Shown here: positions 46,975 through 54,286 of the stretch, in pieces
How positions within the stretch are numbered: the first letter of the stretch is position 1
How the letters are laid out: every line of letters begins with the position of its first letter
DNA from: Acidimicrobiales bacterium
GTDB taxonomy: Bacteria > Actinomycetota > Acidimicrobiia > Acidimicrobiales > RAAP-2
Assembly (NCBI GenBank): GCA_025351385.1
Contig: JANXWA010000031.1
Span: 1-64,000 of the forward strand
Length of the DNA stretch: 64,000 bases
Direction: 5' to 3'
Position numbers and translations under genes: made by a program
The notes under the pieces: model-generated
The model's input: the letters and a program-made list of their open reading frames with translations, nothing else
Told to the model about the DNA's origin: nothing
Databases searched by the model: none

Positions 46975-48360
46975 TCAGCGCGCGCGGGCCGACGCCAATG
47001 ATGCCGGTTGGTTGGTCGGCAGGACGGCCTCGACGTGGGTTCCTTCCCCGACGTGCGAGACCACCTGCAGCGTGCCGCCGAGCATCTTCGCACGCTCGTG
47101 CATGCCGACCAGGCCCAGGGACACCGATTCGACGCCCGCGGGACGTGCGGTGCTGGGATCGAAGCCCCTTCCGTCGTCGTAGATGTCGAGGTTGAGTGAC
47201 TGGGGCTCGAACTCGACCGTCACTTGTAGATGATGGGGTTCGCCGTGACGCACGGCGTTGCGAAGGGACTCCTGGACGATGCGAAAGGCGCCCAGCTCAA
47301 CGTCGGGAGCCAGTCGACACGCCGGCCCGATCACGGTCAACTGGATCGATACGCCGTCGTCGTCCTCGATGTCCGCCACGAGGCTCGAGAGCGCCGCGAC
47401 GAGGCCCAGTTGGTCGAGGGCCGGCGGTCTCAGGTCACGCGCCAGCGTGCGCAGGCGCGCCGCCGCTTCGACGGCCTGGTTGCGAGCCTCGCCCAGGCCG
47501 TCCACGACGTCGTTCGGGACCCCGTGGGTCGTGGACAGCACATCCAGACGGCGGGCGAGGTGCAAGAAGAGCTGCAGGGGCTCGTCATGGAGCTCGCGCG
47601 CCAACTGACGGCGTTGGTCCTCTTCGACCTGCATGACGTGCTGGGCGAAGTGCCGGGTGCGGCGCTCCTCGCTCCGCTCCTCGGTAACGTCCTCGAAGTT
47701 GAGTTGCCGACGTTGGACGGTCGCCTCGTCGGGCATCGAGACGACGTCGATACGGTAGTCGTGGCCGTTGGCGAGCGTGAAGACCTTCCCCGTTAGTCGT
47801 TCGACGTCCGACGCATTGTCCAGCAGGGCCGACGCCGGCGTGCCGACGAGACTCGAGCCGAGTAGCGCGAGGGCGGCGGGATTGGCGTCCGTGATGAGCC
47901 CACCCTGATCCAGGACGAGGATCGGCGATCGGTTGGACTCGAAGAGGCGCCGATAGCCGACTTCGACAGCGAGCGTGAGCGCGGCGACCTCTTCGACGCG
48001 GACCTGGGTCTCACGTTCCGCCTCGATCCGTCGGCCGAAGACGAAGGCGCCCAGCAGAACGATGGCGAAGTTCATCAGGTCGTCCCCGACGTGTCCTTGG
48101 TCGTGGGGCAGTACGAGGTCGGGTAACCAGAGGAGCAGGGCCCAGAAGGTCGTCGCCATCGAACCAGCGTTGCCGTAGCGCATCGCCGCGTAGCCGATCG
48201 GGACGACGAGGAGCGCCACCGGCAGGCCAGTGGGGAACGCGTTGCTGAGGAAGGAGGACTGGAGGTCGATCAGGTAGTGGATGCTCACGATGAGCAGGAT
48301 CATCGCTTGGATGATCCAAAAGGCCGTCTCGCGCACCGGCGGATGGAGCATTCGATCCAT
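46975..48360 (-). CDS. NarL-type sensor histidine kinase (HisKA_3)
   Basis: A 461-residue kinase with four or five N-terminal membrane helices (residues 10-115), a PAS domain (about 135-230), a HisKA_3 dimerisation helix with His in QLARELHDEPLQLF and a HATPase domain (DDGRGFDP N/G boxes). It is transcribed just after the response regulator gene (11 nt), forming a pair. The signal is unknown; the membrane part resembles neither a heme nor an Fe-S sensor. It could control the adjacent redox genes. Confidence 0.9.
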   Translation of the reverse strand: MDRMLHPPVRETAFWIIQAMILLIVSIHYLIDLQSSFLSNAFPTGLPVALLVVPIGYAAMRYGNAGSMATTFWALLLWLPDLVLPHDQGHVGDDLMNFAIVLLGAFVFGRRIEAERETQVRVEEVAALTLAVEVGYRRLFESNRSPILVLDQGGLITDANPAALALLGSSLVGTPASALLDNASDVERLTGKVFTLANGHDYRIDVVSMPDEATVQRRQLNFEDVTEERSEERRTRHFAQHVMQVEEDQRRQLARELHDEPLQLFLHLARRLDVLSTTHGVPNDVVDGLGEARNQAVEAAARLRTLARDLRPPALDQLGLVAALSSLVADIEDDDGVSIQLTVIGPACRLAPDVELGAFRIVQESLRNAVRHGEPHHLQVTVEFEPQSLNLDIYDDGRGFDPSTARPAGVESVSLGLVGMHERAKMLGGTLQVVSHVGEGTHVEAVLPTNQPASLASARAR

Positions 48361-48371
48361 GAGAAACGTCC

Positions 48372-49127
48372 CTAGCTTCCGTCGTTGGGGTTGTCGTGAT
48401 TCGGAGCGCTCACGAGCCGGTGGCTCAGGGCGTGGGTTACCGCTTCGGTACGCGACGTCACGCCAAGCTTGTTCAACACGTTGGACACGTAGCCCTCTAC
48501 CGTGCGGATGCCCAACTCGAGTTGTGCGGCGATCTGCTTGTTCGACTTGCCCTGGGCCAGCAGCACGAGCACGTCGGTCTCCCTCGGTGTCAGTGTGCCA
48601 ATCGTCTCGGGTCCACTCTGGCGATGGCGCACGAGTCGCTTCGACACCTGGCGGTCGAGGACGAGGACTCCGTCCGAGACGGCCCGGACCGCGTCGACCA
48701 GCTCCTTGGCGCTCGCCGTCTTCAAGAGGTAGCCGCCGACGCCGATCTCCAGGGCTTCCGCGACGTAGGCGTACTCGTCGTAGGCGCTGAGGATGAGCAC
48801 GTGCACGTTGGGTTGGGAGGTCACGACGTCGCGCGCCAGCTCGAGTCCGCTCATGGTGGGCAGGTTGATGTCGACGAGGGCGACGTCAGGCTCCAGGTCG
48901 CGCAGCATCGGTAGAGCCTCCTCGGCCGATCCCGCGGTGCCGACCACCTCGATGCCGGGTTCTTGCTGGAGGAGTTGGCGGGTGCCTTCGCGCACCAACG
49001 CGTGGTCGTCGACGATGAGGATCCGGATCGTCCGGAGCGCCGTCGGGTCTGGCGGCGTCGTGAGCGGCCGCTCCGACGACTCGGTCGGCGACGTTTTGAG
49101 GGGCACTGGTCCGTCGGATTCACCCAT
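48372..49127 (-). CDS. LuxR/NarL-family response regulator
   Basis: A 251-residue regulator: receiver domain (LIVDDHALVREG acidic pair, phosphorylated Asp in ALVDINLP, switch Lys in LLKTASAKEL) and a C-terminal LuxR helix-turn-helix (LTPRETDVLVLLAQGKSNKQ). It has a 30-residue Ser/Thr/Pro-rich lead before the receiver. It is co-transcribed with the kinase and divergent from the polyferredoxin gene, whose upstream region holds an inverted repeat that may be its site. Confidence 0.92.
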   Translation of the reverse strand: MGESDGPVPLKTSPTESSERPLTTPPDPTALRTIRILIVDDHALVREGTRQLLQQEPGIEVVGTAGSAEEALPMLRDLEPDVALVDINLPTMSGLELARDVVTSQPNVHVLILSAYDEYAYVAEALEIGVGGYLLKTASAKELVDAVRAVSDGVLVLDRQVSKRLVRHRQSGPETIGTLTPRETDVLVLLAQGKSNKQIAAQLELGIRTVEGYVSNVLNKLGVTSRTEAVTHALSHRLVSAPNHDNPNDGS

Positions 49128-49327: not shown

Positions 49328-49387
49328 TTGACAGATTGGGACATCAGTGATAGTACGTAAGTATACCAGTAGTTCTACGGTAATACT
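49328..49387 (+). promoter_or_regulatory. Possible promoter and operator before the polyferredoxin gene
   Basis: In an A/T-rich stretch of this intergenic region, TTGACA at 49328 is followed 17 nt later by a weak TAGTAC hexamer. An imperfect dyad at 49360-49387 (AGTATACC mirrored by GGTAATACT, inner GTAG/CTAC around TT) lies 34 nt before the start codon. The symmetry suits a dimeric regulator such as the neighbouring NarL-type protein or the Rrf2 protein; which binds, if any, is unknown. Confidence 0.4.
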
Positions 49388-49421
49388 CAAGTAATTCACT
49401 AAACATAAGTGGGGGGCACGA

Positions 49422-50999
49422 ATGGCAGTGAAAACGGAAGGCAAAGGCTCGCCCCGGGCGGACGCAACTCATCTGATCGACCCGATCGCCGTCGCCATAC
49501 GCACGCGTCGGCCTCAGGACCCAGCCGGCACCGGTCGCTTCATCCCGACGGACCCCTCGCCGGGATTGGACGTCGCGCGCAACCCCCGCGTCGCTCGTCT
49601 ACTGAGCAGCCGTCGACTCCAATTCTTCATGATCCTGCCCAACCAGATCATCTTCTGGTTGGTCATCGGCATCGGCCTGCTCGGTGCCGTCGATCCCGGG
49701 CTCAACTTCGCCACCGCCATTACCTGGTACCTGTGGTTCTGCCTGGTCTTCGTGATGATGGTCGTGATCGGCCGAGCCTGGTGCGCGATATGCCCCTTCG
49801 GTGGCTTTGGCGAGTGGGTCCAGCGCCACACCTTTTGGAACCGGACGACGTCGACTATCGGGCTCGGTTTGAAGATGCCCGAGAAGGTCGCGCAATACGG
49901 CTTCCTCCTCTCGGTCGGTACGTTCCTGTTGCTCACGTGGATCGAGGAGTACTTCAACATCGCCGGTCCGGGCAATCCGGCGTCGACCAGCTTCATGGTC
50001 CTTGGCATCGTCGCCAGCGCACTGGTCTTCTTCTTGGTGTTCGAGCGTCGGACCTTCTGTCGCTACCTGTGCCCGCTGTCAGCCCTGGTGGGCTCGGTCG
50101 GGGCCATGGGCTCGGTGGCGGGTTTTCGTACTCGTGACCGTAATGTCTGCTTGAGCTGTCAAACCAAGGAGTGCATGCGCGGCGGCGAGGACGCCTACGG
50201 CTGCGCGTGGTACACGTGGCCGGGCAGTTCGGACTCGAACCTCTCCTGCGGCCTATGCACGGAGTGCTACAAGGCCTGCCCCAACGACAACATCGGCCTG
50301 TTCATCCAGAAGCCGTTGACGTCGGTCGTCGCCCCCACGCGTCGTCGAGCCGACGTGGCGTGGTCGGTCGCGATCCTCTTCGGCCTGGTCGTCTACCAGC
50401 AACTGAACGCGCTGTCGCCGTTCGCGAGTCTCGACAGCTGGCTGAACGCCCACACCTACTTCCCCCAGTACCCGAACCCCCTGAACTACGTTGGCACGAT
50501 CGCGGGGGTGACCCTGCTGCTCGTCGCCGGCGCCAAGGCATTCCAGAAGACCTTCGCCTCACCGGACGCGGTAATCGTCGAGGGCGGCAGGAACTTCAAC
50601 GACCGCACGAGCAAGTTCCGGTTCTACTTCCTCCCTCTGATGTACGGCATCATCCCAGTGGTCGGTGCGGACTACTTCGCGCGTCAGCTGCCGAAGTTCT
50701 TCCTTCACGTGCCACGAGTCGTGACGGCGATCGGGCACCTCTTCGGTCACGGTACGACCACCTCGAAGCTCTACAACACGTCACTCATCTCCTCGAGCGC
50801 CGGCATCATCGCGGTCCAGGTCGCGGTGATGGTGATGGGCACGGCCGCGGCCATGTGGGCGAGTTGGAAGATTGCCGGCCGCGACCTGGCCCCGGCCAGC
50901 GTCAATCGCCGGGCCGTGCAGGTCGGTGCCGCGGGCTTCGCCTTCGTCTGCGGTGCGGCGACCGCCGTGCTGTACGTCCTGATGAACGCCGCGAGCTAG
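49422..50999 (+). CDS. Membrane polyferredoxin (NapH/CcoG/NosR-like 4Fe-4S protein)
   Basis: A 525-residue inner-membrane protein with about six helices and several Cys-x-x-Cys-Pro-type motifs: WCAICPFGGFGE, FCRYLCPLSALVG, a Cys-rich loop (CLSCQTKEC) and CGLCTECYKACPN. These coordinate at least two [4Fe-4S] clusters, as in NapH, CcoG and NosR C-terminal regions that pass electrons to periplasmic or membrane reductases. It is followed 9 nt later by the soluble fusion reductase, with which it probably forms one electron-transfer unit. The final acceptor is unknown. Confidence 0.85.
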   Translation: MAVKTEGKGSPRADATHLIDPIAVAIRTRRPQDPAGTGRFIPTDPSPGLDVARNPRVARLLSSRRLQFFMILPNQIIFWLVIGIGLLGAVDPGLNFATAITWYLWFCLVFVMMVVIGRAWCAICPFGGFGEWVQRHTFWNRTTSTIGLGLKMPEKVAQYGFLLSVGTFLLLTWIEEYFNIAGPGNPASTSFMVLGIVASALVFFLVFERRTFCRYLCPLSALVGSVGAMGSVAGFRTRDRNVCLSCQTKECMRGGEDAYGCAWYTWPGSSDSNLSCGLCTECYKACPNDNIGLFIQKPLTSVVAPTRRRADVAWSVAILFGLVVYQQLNALSPFASLDSWLNAHTYFPQYPNPLNYVGTIAGVTLLLVAGAKAFQKTFASPDAVIVEGGRNFNDRTSKFRFYFLPLMYGIIPVVGADYFARQLPKFFLHVPRVVTAIGHLFGHGTTTSKLYNTSLISSSAGIIAVQVAVMVMGTAAAMWASWKIAGRDLAPASVNRRAVQVGAAGFAFVCGAATAVLYVLMNAAS

Positions 51000-51008
51000 G
51001 AGACTGCC

Positions 51009-53273
51009 ATGACCTTGACAGAGTTGTTCGTCAATAACACGCCTCACGTGACCGTCTTCGTGGACCGCTGCGCGGGTTGCCAGGAGTGCGTCATCCGCTG
51101 TCCCTCCGGAGCACTGTCGATGGAGCCGACGACGTGGACCGTCCTCGCCGACGACAGCGCCTGCGTGGGGTGCCGCCAGTGCGTGCGGACGTGTCCCTTC
51201 AGCGCCATCAGCGTCGGGGGCCCGATGCTGGTCACTGAGCGCCACGATCCGCCGCTGCACCACCCGGTGGAGCTGCGTGGGAACGTCGACGAGACGAGGG
51301 TCGGTTTTGCGACCTGGGACGAGGCGATCGCCGAGGCGAGCCGGTGCCTGGAGTGTCCGGACCCGACGTGCGTGCGCGGCTGCCCGGCCCACAACAACAT
51401 TCCCCAGTTCATCGCCGCCGTTCGCGACCACGACCTCGCCACGGCCCACCGGATCCTGAGCCGGACCACGGTGATCCCCGACATCTGCTCGAGGGTCTGC
51501 AACCAGTCGGCGCAGTGCGAGGGTTCGTGCAGCTGGTCCCTGGCCGGGGGCGAGCCCGTGGCGATCGGTCGTCTCGAGCGCTTCATCGCGGATCAGGCTC
51601 CGGTGCCGGCGCCGAGTATGACGTCCGAGGCGTGGGTCGAGCACGCCGGTGGCGGCATGTCGGTCGGGATCATCGGTTCAGGTCCGGCGGGCATCGGCGC
51701 GGCGTGGGACCTGATCGAGTCGGGCGCGTCCGTCACGGTCTACGAGAAGGAGTCGACGCCCGGTGGCCTGTGCATGTGGGGTATGCCGGACTTCACACTG
51801 CCCGAGGCCGTCGCGACGAGGCCCTGGCAGCAGCTAACGGCGGCGGGCGTGGATCTGCGATGCGGCATCGTCATTCAACCCGAGGACGTCGACCGGTTGT
51901 TGGACGAGCACGACGCGGTCGTCGTCGCGCATGGGGCTGGCGTGGCGATCCGCCTCCCGGTACCCGGTGCGGACCTCGAGGGCGTCGTGGACGCGACCCA
52001 GTTCCTCCAAGGAGCCAAGGCCGCCCTTGAACCCGTAGGGAACGCTCAGGAGTTCCTCGGACGCCTCGGTCTGGCCCCGACGAACTCGACCGGGACGCCT
52101 TTCCGGGTCCTCGTACTCGGAGCGGGCAACACCGCGATGGACGTCGCGCGCATGGCGCGTCGGCTTGGATTGGACGCAATGTGCATTGACTGGCTCGACG
52201 AGCGCTTCGCACTCGCGCGACCCGACGAACTCGCCGAAGCCCGCCACGAGGGCGTGGAGGTCCGCTTCCAGCGGACGCTCACCACGCTGAAGGGCTTCGC
52301 CGGACGGGTTGATCTGGCCGAGTTGACGCACACGGTCCAGGAGGAGTCGGGGCGCCAGCCCAAGGTCCTGACCGGTCGCCACGACCGACTCAAGGTGAAC
52401 TTGGTGGTGATGGCCATGGGGTACCGAGTCGACCCGGCCTTCGCCGAGGTGCTTTCGCACGTGCCGATTCGCAAGAAGGCCACCGGCGTGTCCGATGGTC
52501 AATGGAGGGCAAGCGGCATCATGGCCAACGCCGCATCGGCCTACGCCAACCACTCTCCCGTTGGTGAGTTGGCCCTGGACCGCGAGGTCGGCCTCTGGGC
52601 GGCGGCGTTGCCCGTCGACGAGCGGTTGTGGGTCGTCGGCGACGCGTTGACTGGTCCGTCGACCGTGGTCGAGGCGATGGCGCAGGGTCGTCGTGCGGCC
52701 AGGGCCATCCTCGACGCGCAGCCGTCGCGACCAGGTGGGGCCGAGCGTCGCCCAAGCGTCGCCAAGCGTGTCCTCGTCTGTCACGAGAGCGCCGGTGGCA
52801 CCACGGCGGCCACCGCCACGGCCATCGCCGGCCAACTCGCCGCGTTCGGTGCGCGGGTGACGACGCTGCCAATCGCCGAGGTCGGTGCTCGCGAACTTGC
52901 GGCGGCTGACGTCGTGGTCGTGGGCACCTGGGTCGAGGGGCTCGTCGTGGCTCGGGTCCACCCCGCCAAGGCCACGCGAAAGTGGCTTGAGGCGATGCCG
53001 CGACTCGGGTCTCGCCCGGTTGGCATCTTCTGCACCTACGGCGTCGATCCGAAGTCGACCTTGAGCGAGATGCGTTCGGCGATTGAGGCCAAGGGTGGCG
53101 TCATCGCGGGGGAGCGCGCGTTCGGGCCCAAGGATCGTGAAGGTGATGCGGGTCACCTGGGAACCGGTGATTTCGTGCGAGCGCTCGTGGCGCAGCTCGG
53201 ACTGGAGGCGAACGTCGCACCCTCGTCGGTACCTTGGCGCACCTTGGATTCGGTGCGAGTGGTCAGTCGCTAG
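51009..53273 (+). CDS. Ferredoxin / GltD-like NAD(P)H oxidoreductase / flavodoxin fusion
   Basis: A 754-residue three-part protein. Residues 18-65 form a 2[4Fe-4S] ferredoxin (C21, C24, C27, C31; C52, C55, C58, C62). Residues 95-570 form a GltD/NfnB-type flavoenzyme with its own Cys clusters (CLECPDPTC, CNQSAQCEGSC), FAD loop GSGPAG (223-228) and NAD(P) loop GAGNTA (371-376). Residues 586-740 form a flavodoxin-like FMN domain. No gltB partner is near, so it is not glutamate synthase. Electrons probably pass between NAD(P)H, Fe-S centres and flavin, on to or from the membrane polyferredoxin encoded just upstream. Confidence 0.85.
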   Translation: MTLTELFVNNTPHVTVFVDRCAGCQECVIRCPSGALSMEPTTWTVLADDSACVGCRQCVRTCPFSAISVGGPMLVTERHDPPLHHPVELRGNVDETRVGFATWDEAIAEASRCLECPDPTCVRGCPAHNNIPQFIAAVRDHDLATAHRILSRTTVIPDICSRVCNQSAQCEGSCSWSLAGGEPVAIGRLERFIADQAPVPAPSMTSEAWVEHAGGGMSVGIIGSGPAGIGAAWDLIESGASVTVYEKESTPGGLCMWGMPDFTLPEAVATRPWQQLTAAGVDLRCGIVIQPEDVDRLLDEHDAVVVAHGAGVAIRLPVPGADLEGVVDATQFLQGAKAALEPVGNAQEFLGRLGLAPTNSTGTPFRVLVLGAGNTAMDVARMARRLGLDAMCIDWLDERFALARPDELAEARHEGVEVRFQRTLTTLKGFAGRVDLAELTHTVQEESGRQPKVLTGRHDRLKVNLVVMAMGYRVDPAFAEVLSHVPIRKKATGVSDGQWRASGIMANAASAYANHSPVGELALDREVGLWAAALPVDERLWVVGDALTGPSTVVEAMAQGRRAARAILDAQPSRPGGAERRPSVAKRVLVCHESAGGTTAATATAIAGQLAAFGARVTTLPIAEVGARELAAADVVVVGTWVEGLVVARVHPAKATRKWLEAMPRLGSRPVGIFCTYGVDPKSTLSEMRSAIEAKGGVIAGERAFGPKDREGDAGHLGTGDFVRALVAQLGLEANVAPSSVPWRTLDSVRVVSR

Positions 53274-53285
53274 GCCGGCGCCCGC

Positions 53286-54206
53286 TCACGCCTCTTCGAG
53301 GGCGTGGGCGAGGCGACGCAGCAGCGAGCGAACGGTGGCGCGCGCTACCCGGGTTAGCACCACGTCATCCAGGGCTTGGCCGGCCCGGCCGAGCGGAGGT
53401 CGGTAACGGCCGTCCAGAGCGACCTCGGTCCGGTCGGGGTCGACCTCGACCAGGCGCAGCGTCCCAGTCAATCGAGGGAACAGCCCCGCTGGCCCGGTGG
53501 CCTCCCAGGTGATCGGGATGACCACCGCGCCCTCGCTCTTCACCGCTTCGCCCAAGTGCACGGCGACCGTCTTCGTCAGCCAACCGGACCCCCCCGGTCC
53601 AATCCGCATGAGCAGCTCCTCGCCGTCGTCGCGCGCGGCGTCGAGATGGGGGATCAACCAGGACCCTCCGGCCTGAAGGCGATCGACGATCGTCACGACA
53701 CCTTGTTCGACCTGCACCGAGTCCTTGATCTCCACCGTCTCGGCGTGGGCCCGCCGGTGACCGACCACGTGGTACTCGCCGGAGGTGATCGCCCGGTCGC
53801 GCTCTGCCAGGGTGGCCAAAGTCGTCGAGGCCAGTTCGGCCTTCATCGCGGCCGTGGCCGCCGTCCAGGTCTCGTGGAGCGGACAGACCGACTCCCATTT
53901 GCAGGGATCGTCGCCCAGGACGCAGGTGTCTGCGTCGAGCAGACCCTCGCCGGCCTCCACTACCTCGAGCAGTGTGATCTCCTCGGGCCGGCGGGCGAGC
54001 CGGTAGCCCCCGTTGGTGCCGAAGAAGGAGGTGGCGATGCCCGCCTGGACAAGGTCGCCCATGATCTGGGACACGAACGTCCGTGGAACCCCCATTTCGA
54101 GCGAGACCTGGCGGAGCTTCTTGGGCGTCTCCGCGCCGTAGCTGGACGCCAGGCAGATCGCCGAGCGTACGACGTAGTCGCCACGCTTCGAGAGCTTGAG
54201 CTTCAT
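53286..54206 (-). CDS. Rrf2-family regulator fused to an SRPBCC domain
   Basis: A 306-residue fusion. Residues 1-140 are an Rrf2 winged-helix regulator (IscR/NsrR group) with a candidate Fe-S triad C95, C102, C108. Residues 155-300 match the SRPBCC/START-like fold (TGTLRLVEVDPDRTEVALDGRY), a hydrophobic-ligand pocket. The regulator could thus respond to both an Fe-S/NO/redox signal and a small molecule. It converges on the redox fusion gene 12 nt away, and a spaced inverted repeat lies over its upstream region. The start codon is chosen from family homology. Confidence 0.82.
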   Translation of the reverse strand: MKLKLSKRGDYVVRSAICLASSYGAETPKKLRQVSLEMGVPRTFVSQIMGDLVQAGIATSFFGTNGGYRLARRPEEITLLEVVEAGEGLLDADTCVLGDDPCKWESVCPLHETWTAATAAMKAELASTTLATLAERDRAITSGEYHVVGHRRAHAETVEIKDSVQVEQGVVTIVDRLQAGGSWLIPHLDAARDDGEELLMRIGPGGSGWLTKTVAVHLGEAVKSEGAVVIPITWEATGPAGLFPRLTGTLRLVEVDPDRTEVALDGRYRPPLGRAGQALDDVVLTRVARATVRSLLRRLAHALEEA

Positions 54207-54221
54207 CTCGATAGAGTAGTT

Positions 54222-54286
54222 GCCCACCAGACGTGCAGCGCCGGGCCTCATCGTTGAGCGGCGAGACGTTGTTGTTCCTGGTGGGC
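54222..54286. promoter_or_regulatory. Spaced inverted repeat upstream of the Rrf2 gene
   Basis: GCCCACCAG (54222-54230) and CTGGTGGGC (54278-54286) are perfect 9-bp reverse complements, 56 bp apart centre to centre, just upstream of the regulator start. This spacing places them on the same helix face, so a looped or paired operator for autoregulation is possible. Evidence is positional only. Confidence 0.35.

Follow-up and report, generated by a model that had tools for sequence, protein, structure and literature searches.

A membrane polyferredoxin paired with a ferredoxin, GltD-like and flavodoxin fusion protein in an Acidimicrobiales bacterium

Ferredoxins joined to GltD-like flavoenzymes have a precedent in AegA and YgfT of Escherichia coli, in which an N-terminal [4Fe-4S] ferredoxin and a GltD-like NAD(P)H flavoenzyme share a single chain; the accessible part of the paper describing them mentions neither a flavodoxin nor a polyferredoxin as partner (PMC8097209). 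A related core occurs in NfnB/NfnI-L, the large subunit of the bifurcating ferredoxin:NADP oxidoreductase Nfn, and NapH and NosR provide examples of membrane modules carrying iron-sulphur clusters. Here we describe POLY and FLV, two adjacent genes that bring such parts together in a 64,000-nucleotide stretch of an Acidimicrobiales genome (GenBank assembly GCA_025351385.1, contig JANXWA010000031.1, positions 1 to 64,000 of the forward strand), referred to below as the window. The host actinobacterium we take to be kin of acid-loving iron bacteria. In the list of open reading frames (ORFs), POLY (49422..50999, + strand) encodes 525 amino acids and FLV (51009..53273, + strand) 754, at the positions given in an earlier reading made from the sequence alone (the original prediction). 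All the modules are known singly; joined as here, with a polyferredoxin in the membrane and a flavodoxin in the fusion protein, they look undescribed, no account of such a system having been found in open-licence PubMed Central papers. The original prediction allowed that the fusion might turn out to be a common, characterised enzyme, and the same papers yielded none of this architecture. The best reading of the module is an AegA-like ferredoxin-GltD enzyme to which a flavodoxin and a polyferredoxin have been added, and which would distribute electrons among NADH, quinone and flavodoxin.

Domain architecture of FLV and POLY

Three redox parts had been read from motifs in FLV, and all three are borne out by domain searches and modelling. 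Pfam places Fer4_7 at residues 20-66, Fer4_20 at 96-197 (E 1.1e-33) and Pyr_redox_2 at 218-487 (E 1.7e-18), delimiting a predicted 2[4Fe-4S] ferredoxin domain (residues 14-70, 51048..51218), a cluster-binding domain (96-197, 51294..51599) and an FAD/NAD-binding core (218-487, 51660..52469), all on the + strand. In the AlphaFold2 (AF2) model (mean predicted local distance difference test score, pLDDT, 82.9; predicted template modelling score, pTM, 0.85) residues 73-573 gave their best structural match with NfnI-L (5jfc_L), at Z 36.7 over 434 residues (VIA-align). As predicted, FLV has eight Cys at 21-62, a Gly-rich motif at 223 and the GAGNTA motif at 371, each of them conserved. In an alignment of 92 rows, the window included, with one outgroup making 93, the 16 Cys (eight in the ferredoxin, eight in Fer4_20, the latter candidate ligands for two further [4Fe-4S] clusters) are kept in every row having a letter there, and Glu190 and Arg191 are found in 93/93. 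The position of Glu190 presumably corresponds to that of the ligand other than Cys at one of the NfnB clusters, occupied by Gln in DPD.

FLV thus shares with NfnB/NfnI-L the same FAD and two-cluster core. It differs in its extra ferredoxin and flavodoxin domains and in a nucleotide site that appears to be of NADH type. The stretch CIDWLDER aligns with the part of NfnB that bears two arginines, and both are missing from FLV, where DWLDER (residues 394-399, 52188..52205, + strand) replaces the YRR-type stretch. Position 394 is D or E in 91/93 rows, and an acidic residue at such a site of a Rossmann fold points to NADH. With the NADPH-type arginines replaced in this way, the sequence suggests that the nucleotide is NADH and not NADPH. 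A further difference from Nfn concerns context, since FLV lies between POLY and an Rrf2 gene and no NfnA/NfnS adjoins it in the window, NfnS not having been searched for elsewhere in the genome.

The order of Fer4_20 followed by an adrenodoxin-reductase-like FAD/NAD(P) core makes FLV a GltD-like protein. As a glutamate synthase small subunit it was rejected, scoring 252.9 against a cut-off of 471.75 bits for NCBIfam GltA and 217.5 against 482.95 for gltD_gamma_fam. It also falls outside the AegA/YgfT equivalogs of NCBIfam (192.3 against 1003 and 174 against 1154 bits), and differs from AegA in the loss of the NADPH-type motif. As the original prediction held, no glutamate synthase large subunit is near: reading of the ORF list from 44 to 58 kb, with no hidden Markov model test made, revealed no GltB-like protein.

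The C-terminal domain (residues 586-730, 52764..53198, + strand) is difficult to recognise in the single window sequence, which scores 19.6 bits with Flavodoxin_3 for the whole of FLV and 23.5 for the domain alone, short of the Pfam cut-off of 27.5. When 42 homologous C-terminal domains were combined into a profile, however, it found solved flavodoxins at E 3.9e-11, and 39/42 of these domains matched Flavodoxin_1 at E <= 0.01. The AF2 model has the alternating beta-alpha order, and its residues ~586-730 superimpose on 4heq and 1f4p with Z 20.2 (138-140 residues, root mean square deviation 2.0-2.1 Å, VIA-align). The model and the profile together identify the domain as a predicted flavodoxin fold beginning, as had been proposed, at 586; that the flavodoxin is not real was a possibility ruled out by the profile and the fold match. 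The residues of the FMN loops are retained, namely those of the phosphate loop (S594, G597 and T599 in 42/42 rows, as is G644) and W641 (40/42), and the domain probably binds FMN.

The flavodoxin is present in 82/92 FLV rows and absent from eight, two further rows being cut by contig ends; in the eight the stop codon lies well inside the locus, where frameshifts are still possible. The outgroup, genome G481, also has an FLV without flavodoxin, after which a separate ferredoxin gene follows. A quick tree with long branches requires ~5 changes in flavodoxin presence, from which the domain looks like an add-on to a ferredoxin-GltD enzyme, repeatedly lost or gained.

POLY corresponds to the NapH/CcoG-like membrane Fe-S protein that the original prediction had placed directly before FLV. 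Fer4_5 is matched in two stretches at 51.7 bits (Pfam cut-off 22), making POLY a Fer4_5 polyferredoxin. Its Cys pairs lie at 121/124 (CX2CP) and 213/217 (CX3CP), with eight further Cys at 243-286, and these 12 are invariant in 78/78 aligned rows. The Fer4_5 membrane module, the paired Cys-Pro motifs and the further cluster motifs are shared with NapH and NosR, and by these motifs POLY is a NapH/NosR-like membrane Fe-S protein. Differences from NapH/NosR are the CX2CP form of the first motif, a long membrane part at the C-terminus that no Pfam family covers, and the flavoenzyme gene as partner. The AF2 model of POLY consists of helices at moderate confidence (mean pLDDT 70.1).

Distribution of the pair and co-occurrence with Ehr-type complexes

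Close FLV homologues (E <= 1e-140) occur in 15/296 genomes of the class, and close POLY homologues at the same threshold in the same 15; four further genomes of the 296 have distant POLY relatives alone. Carriage within the class is sporadic. In a phylum sample of 396 genomes, close POLY matches were confined to five, of which four belong to the same order and the other, G481, lies outside the class; distant matches occurred in five others, and a second sampling of the same phylum yielded nothing further. Among the 80 of 129 named loci listed, most titles are Actinomycetes, Actinobacteria, Acidimicrobiales or Acidimicrobiaceae, with two Acidobacteria/Acidobacteriota and one Dormiibacterota. 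Many carrier isolate names we take to denote acid-mine or permafrost sites. The part of PMC8790237 consulted describes several acidimicrobia in culture that oxidise iron and can also reduce ferric iron under anaerobic conditions. Plasmids gave only distant POLY matches (5/72,556 records).

After removal of five duplicate loci (near-identical rows, for example L124 and L142, were kept), the order in 90/90 loci holding both is POLY and then FLV, on one strand and at a gap of -13 to 187 bases (median 25); two further loci, L142 and L146, start inside FLV. The polyferredoxin is thus the constant neighbour whose presence had been proposed for checking. Such adjacency excludes chance, so that chance pairing or mis-annotation was discarded as an explanation, and the two genes are inherited together. 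Regulators are the other usual neighbours: among 43 well-flanked loci an Rrf2 gene is near in 32, a histidine kinase in 26, a response regulator in 25 and any of the three in 40, the exceptions being L073, L074 and L156. The next commonest neighbour family is found in 10 loci.

Elsewhere in the genome the pair co-occurs with Ehr complexes, which are group-4-hydrogenase-like complexes defined by missing metal ligands; the accessible parts of the literature leave their electron partner unsettled (PMC6349859 for the definition; PMC6349859 and PMC6901956 for the partner). A search for complex I and hydrogenases in a panel of 40 genomes (15 carriers and 25 non-carriers, chosen by kinship) revealed a second, hydrogenase-like large subunit and gave rise to the idea of an Ehr link. 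Counted then in 296 genomes, which include the panel, the Ehr-type large subunit was present in 18 at E <= 1e-26, comprising 13/15 carriers and 5/281 non-carriers (Fisher p 5e-17, kinship ignored). Stratification over the three families holding both kinds, with the genomes seen in the class, panel and Ehr scans as members, gave 8/8 carriers against 1/16 non-carriers (p 1.8e-4). The Ehr of G285 (6.1e-27) lies near the cut and has the whole gene set. The C-terminal CxxC is absent from all 15 large subunits with a whole C-terminus (that of L179 is cut), placing them in the Ehr type; the N-terminal motif, examined in part of the set, retains two Cys in L188 (G260).

The likeness of the Ehr complexes to the present system lies in this co-occurrence as a separate operon; as a difference, they adjoin POLY-FLV in none of the stretches read. 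A complete Ehr/Hyc-like operon stands at L178:4638-12223 (G000 contig C5), where reading by eye recognised proteins like NuoB, NuoL, NuoH and NuoN, one like HycE and, after these, an ArsR-like regulator; the HycE-like protein is without metal-ligand Cys (ERISGD, DPSFFNW). This layout we take to resemble that of mycobacterial Rv0081-Rv0087. The likeness also draws on part of PMC6901956. In L181, L182, L184, L189 and L192 the Ehr genes are arranged in another order, which marks a second type.

Other associations were absent or unclear in the panel: POR occurs in 12/15 carriers and 18/25 non-carriers, cytochrome bd in 7/15 and 7/25, neither giving a link, and other [NiFe] hydrogenases showed no clear association with carriers. 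A role for POLY-FLV as replacement for complex I was unsupported, the 49-kDa subunit of complex I being present in 40/40 panel genomes. The contig with the L178 operon also carries a group 3b [NiFe] hydrogenase-like operon with intact Cys motifs (L195:6030-11435, G000 contig C5), its large subunit belonging to the PF00374 family and the remaining genes having been read by eye.

Candidate electron paths

We tentatively regard POLY and FLV as one inner-membrane oxidoreductase that may exchange electrons among NADH, quinones of the membrane pool and a one-electron carrier of low potential, a reading we consider possible and somewhat short of probable. Accessible parts of the literature propose that quinol is oxidised by the membrane segments of NapH (PMC5928378) and that electrons from NAD(P)H leave GltD-like modules by way of very-low-potential [4Fe-4S] clusters (PMC8097209); on the basis of these proposals we propose a path from NADH through FAD and four clusters to POLY and quinone. 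NADH would reduce the FAD of the NfnL/GltD-like core, and electrons would leave through the two Fer4_20 clusters for the N-terminal 2[4Fe-4S] ferredoxin domain, from which the cytoplasmic clusters of POLY could take them to quinone. The flavodoxin may act as an on-board one-electron outlet or buffer for low-potential electrons destined for soluble or membrane partners, possibly an Ehr-type complex. Expression would be under an Fe-S-type Rrf2 regulator and often also a NarL-type two-component system. Were NADH, quinone and flavodoxin indeed coupled, the module would constitute a new entry point into Acidimicrobiales energy metabolism, and it can also be considered a possible partner of the hydrogenase-like Ehr complexes.

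The original prediction had spoken of a self-contained electron relay linking NAD(P)H with an acceptor in the membrane. The relay fits every domain and the sequence favours NADH, the relay itself being something we infer. 'Self-contained' stands only in part: the loss of flavodoxin in some rows, the usually adjacent regulators and the co-occurrence of Ehr make other partners likely.

Several results weigh against the NADH-quinone-flavodoxin reading. The flavodoxin, missing in 8/92 rows, is the least conserved part of FLV, and in L073 and L074, both divergent paralogues, positions 394-395 are Arg-Arg; these are second POLY-FLV copies, in G059 and G285, without flavodoxin and with none of the three regulator families nearby, and are possibly NADPH-linked. 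POLY falls far short of the NapH/MauN model of NCBIfam (TIGR02163, 21.8 against 213.05 bits), and a fold search with its weak AF2 model gave no confident match and excluded no family. With complex I in all 40 panel genomes, a further NADH:quinone route is not needed for that purpose alone. As to Ehr, the cut was chosen after the list had been seen, between Ehr and presumed complex I matches (best 1.6e-24), and divergent Ehr are possible among the weaker second matches of other genomes below it; two carriers, G014 and G134, are without Ehr, and no operator of at least 14/17 consensus positions (see below) occurs in 351 kb covering 17 loci with Ehr genes and three hydrogenase loci. Finally, open-licence PubMed Central papers yielded no biochemistry on the module.

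The opposite direction of flow, with POLY oxidising quinol and FLV pushing electrons to flavodoxin/ferredoxin or NAD+ so that acidophiles, whose pH gradient is large, gain low-potential reductant for their biosynthesis, would accord with the acidic sites that many carrier isolate names seem to denote. It would also accord with the quinol oxidation proposed, in the part of the source available, for NapH membrane segments (PMC5928378), and with RuBisCO, which is found in 4/15 carriers and 0/25 non-carriers of the panel (p 0.015). All four RuBisCO carriers, however, belong to one family, f3, and the flow would be strongly uphill while neither protein is an ion-translocating subunit of known kind, so that we think this direction somewhat unlikely. 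Delivery of NADH electrons in AegA fashion to one specific enzyme encoded elsewhere, POLY acting as an anchor or reaching a periplasmic acceptor, draws on the ferredoxin-GltD order common to AegA and YgfT (PMC8097209, in part) and on the E value of 1.1e-56 that FLV obtains with NCBIfam AegA, though below the cut-off. Cupredoxin-like secreted proteins, recognised by eye, adjoin the distant POLY relatives (31-33% identity), and a weak AurF match, a ferredoxin or an NrfD gene lies near some loci; yet no third enzyme is widely kept alongside, the next neighbour family reaching only 10 loci, and such a dedicated donor appears unlikely.

FLV might also bifurcate electrons. In a quinone-coupled variant of NfnL-type bifurcation, NADH electrons would be split at the FAD, one to POLY and quinone and the other to the built-in flavodoxin, which would power an Ehr complex or be recharged by it, the two enzymes forming an energy-coupling loop in acidophilic actinobacteria; POLY-FLV would then fill the role of FixABCX while being built from components unrelated to it. 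This we judge decidedly unlikely. The conservation of three Cys in the Rrf2 protein, encoded near 32/43 well-flanked loci, and the operator-like motif before POLY and some Rrf2 genes could instead indicate a stress module; with Rrf2 as the sensor of Fe-S or NO/O2 stress, it would maintain flavodoxin/ferredoxin in the reduced state for detoxification or the repair of Fe-S clusters. The many clusters of the enzyme itself would be a poor design for Fe-S stress, and no further neighbour family is widely kept, leaving this explanation very doubtful.

Neighbouring genes and the control region

Downstream of FLV the window carries an Rrf2-family gene (53286..54251, - strand; start codon perhaps nearer 54206), matching PF02082 at 101.2 bits over residues 20-150. 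Its three Cys are kept in 60-65 of 70 rows, and domain and Cys together assign it to the family. The C-terminal extension of ~160 residues is without a Pfam family and looks SRPBCC-like by eye. Divergent from POLY lies a NarL/LuxR-type response regulator (48372..49127, - strand), followed by a PAS/HisKA_3 histidine kinase (46975..48360, - strand) whose N-terminal part looks membrane-embedded by eye; both were recognised by Pfam and as neighbour families.

A promoter-like TTGACA-N17-TAGTAC (49328..49356, + strand) was read ahead of POLY. Across loci, CTTGAC occurs upstream of POLY in 62/80 regions, compared with a mean of 8.7 and a maximum of 18 in 50 shuffles, and the stricter TRTAGY-N4..6-CTTGAC in 25/80 compared with 0/20, the shuffles, which swap dinucleotide blocks, being a rough control. 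The operator-like motif, AAGTnTAGY-N5-ACTTGACRT, consists of two inverted half-sites, the right half overlapping a -35-like box. Matches at 14/17 positions or more number 75 in 91 loci; 56 of these, in 45 loci, precede POLY by a distance rule, and several more lie there too. In six loci (L082, L085, L088, L091, L097 and L111) out of ~34 with a separate Rrf2 promoter, the core lies 14-20 bases ahead of the called start of Rrf2. The window sites are weaker, with 13/17 positions at 49384-49406 (- strand) and at 54212-54234, a score equalled by one unrelated window match. The presence of the motif before POLY and some Rrf2 genes suggests that Rrf2 controls both the operon and itself.

In a scan of 20 genomes for a wider regulon, only POLY sites matched at 0-1 mismatch (G190, G287, G169). 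At <=3 mismatches there were 105 matches, compared with 126 for a reversed-pattern control (summed from the table), so the weaker matches mean nothing. One palindrome with three mismatches, of a strength class no commoner than the control, lies ~50 bases before a cytochrome bd subunit I match (615987) at G205:C1:615912-615934.

Some loci have neighbours of other kinds. The distant POLY relatives in L075, L076, L077 and L078 (31-33% identity), with the adjoining cupredoxin-like secreted proteins noted above, are a second kind of POLY system. Downstream of FLV, L107, L122 and L142 encode a protein that matches AurF weakly, at 18.5 bits and under the cut-off; in L107 and L122 a small unassigned protein and a third gene follow, the latter a ferredoxin by eye in L122. 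At L066:9762, close to POLY-FLV, an operator match of 14/17 lies a short way ahead of a radical SAM/SPASM gene.

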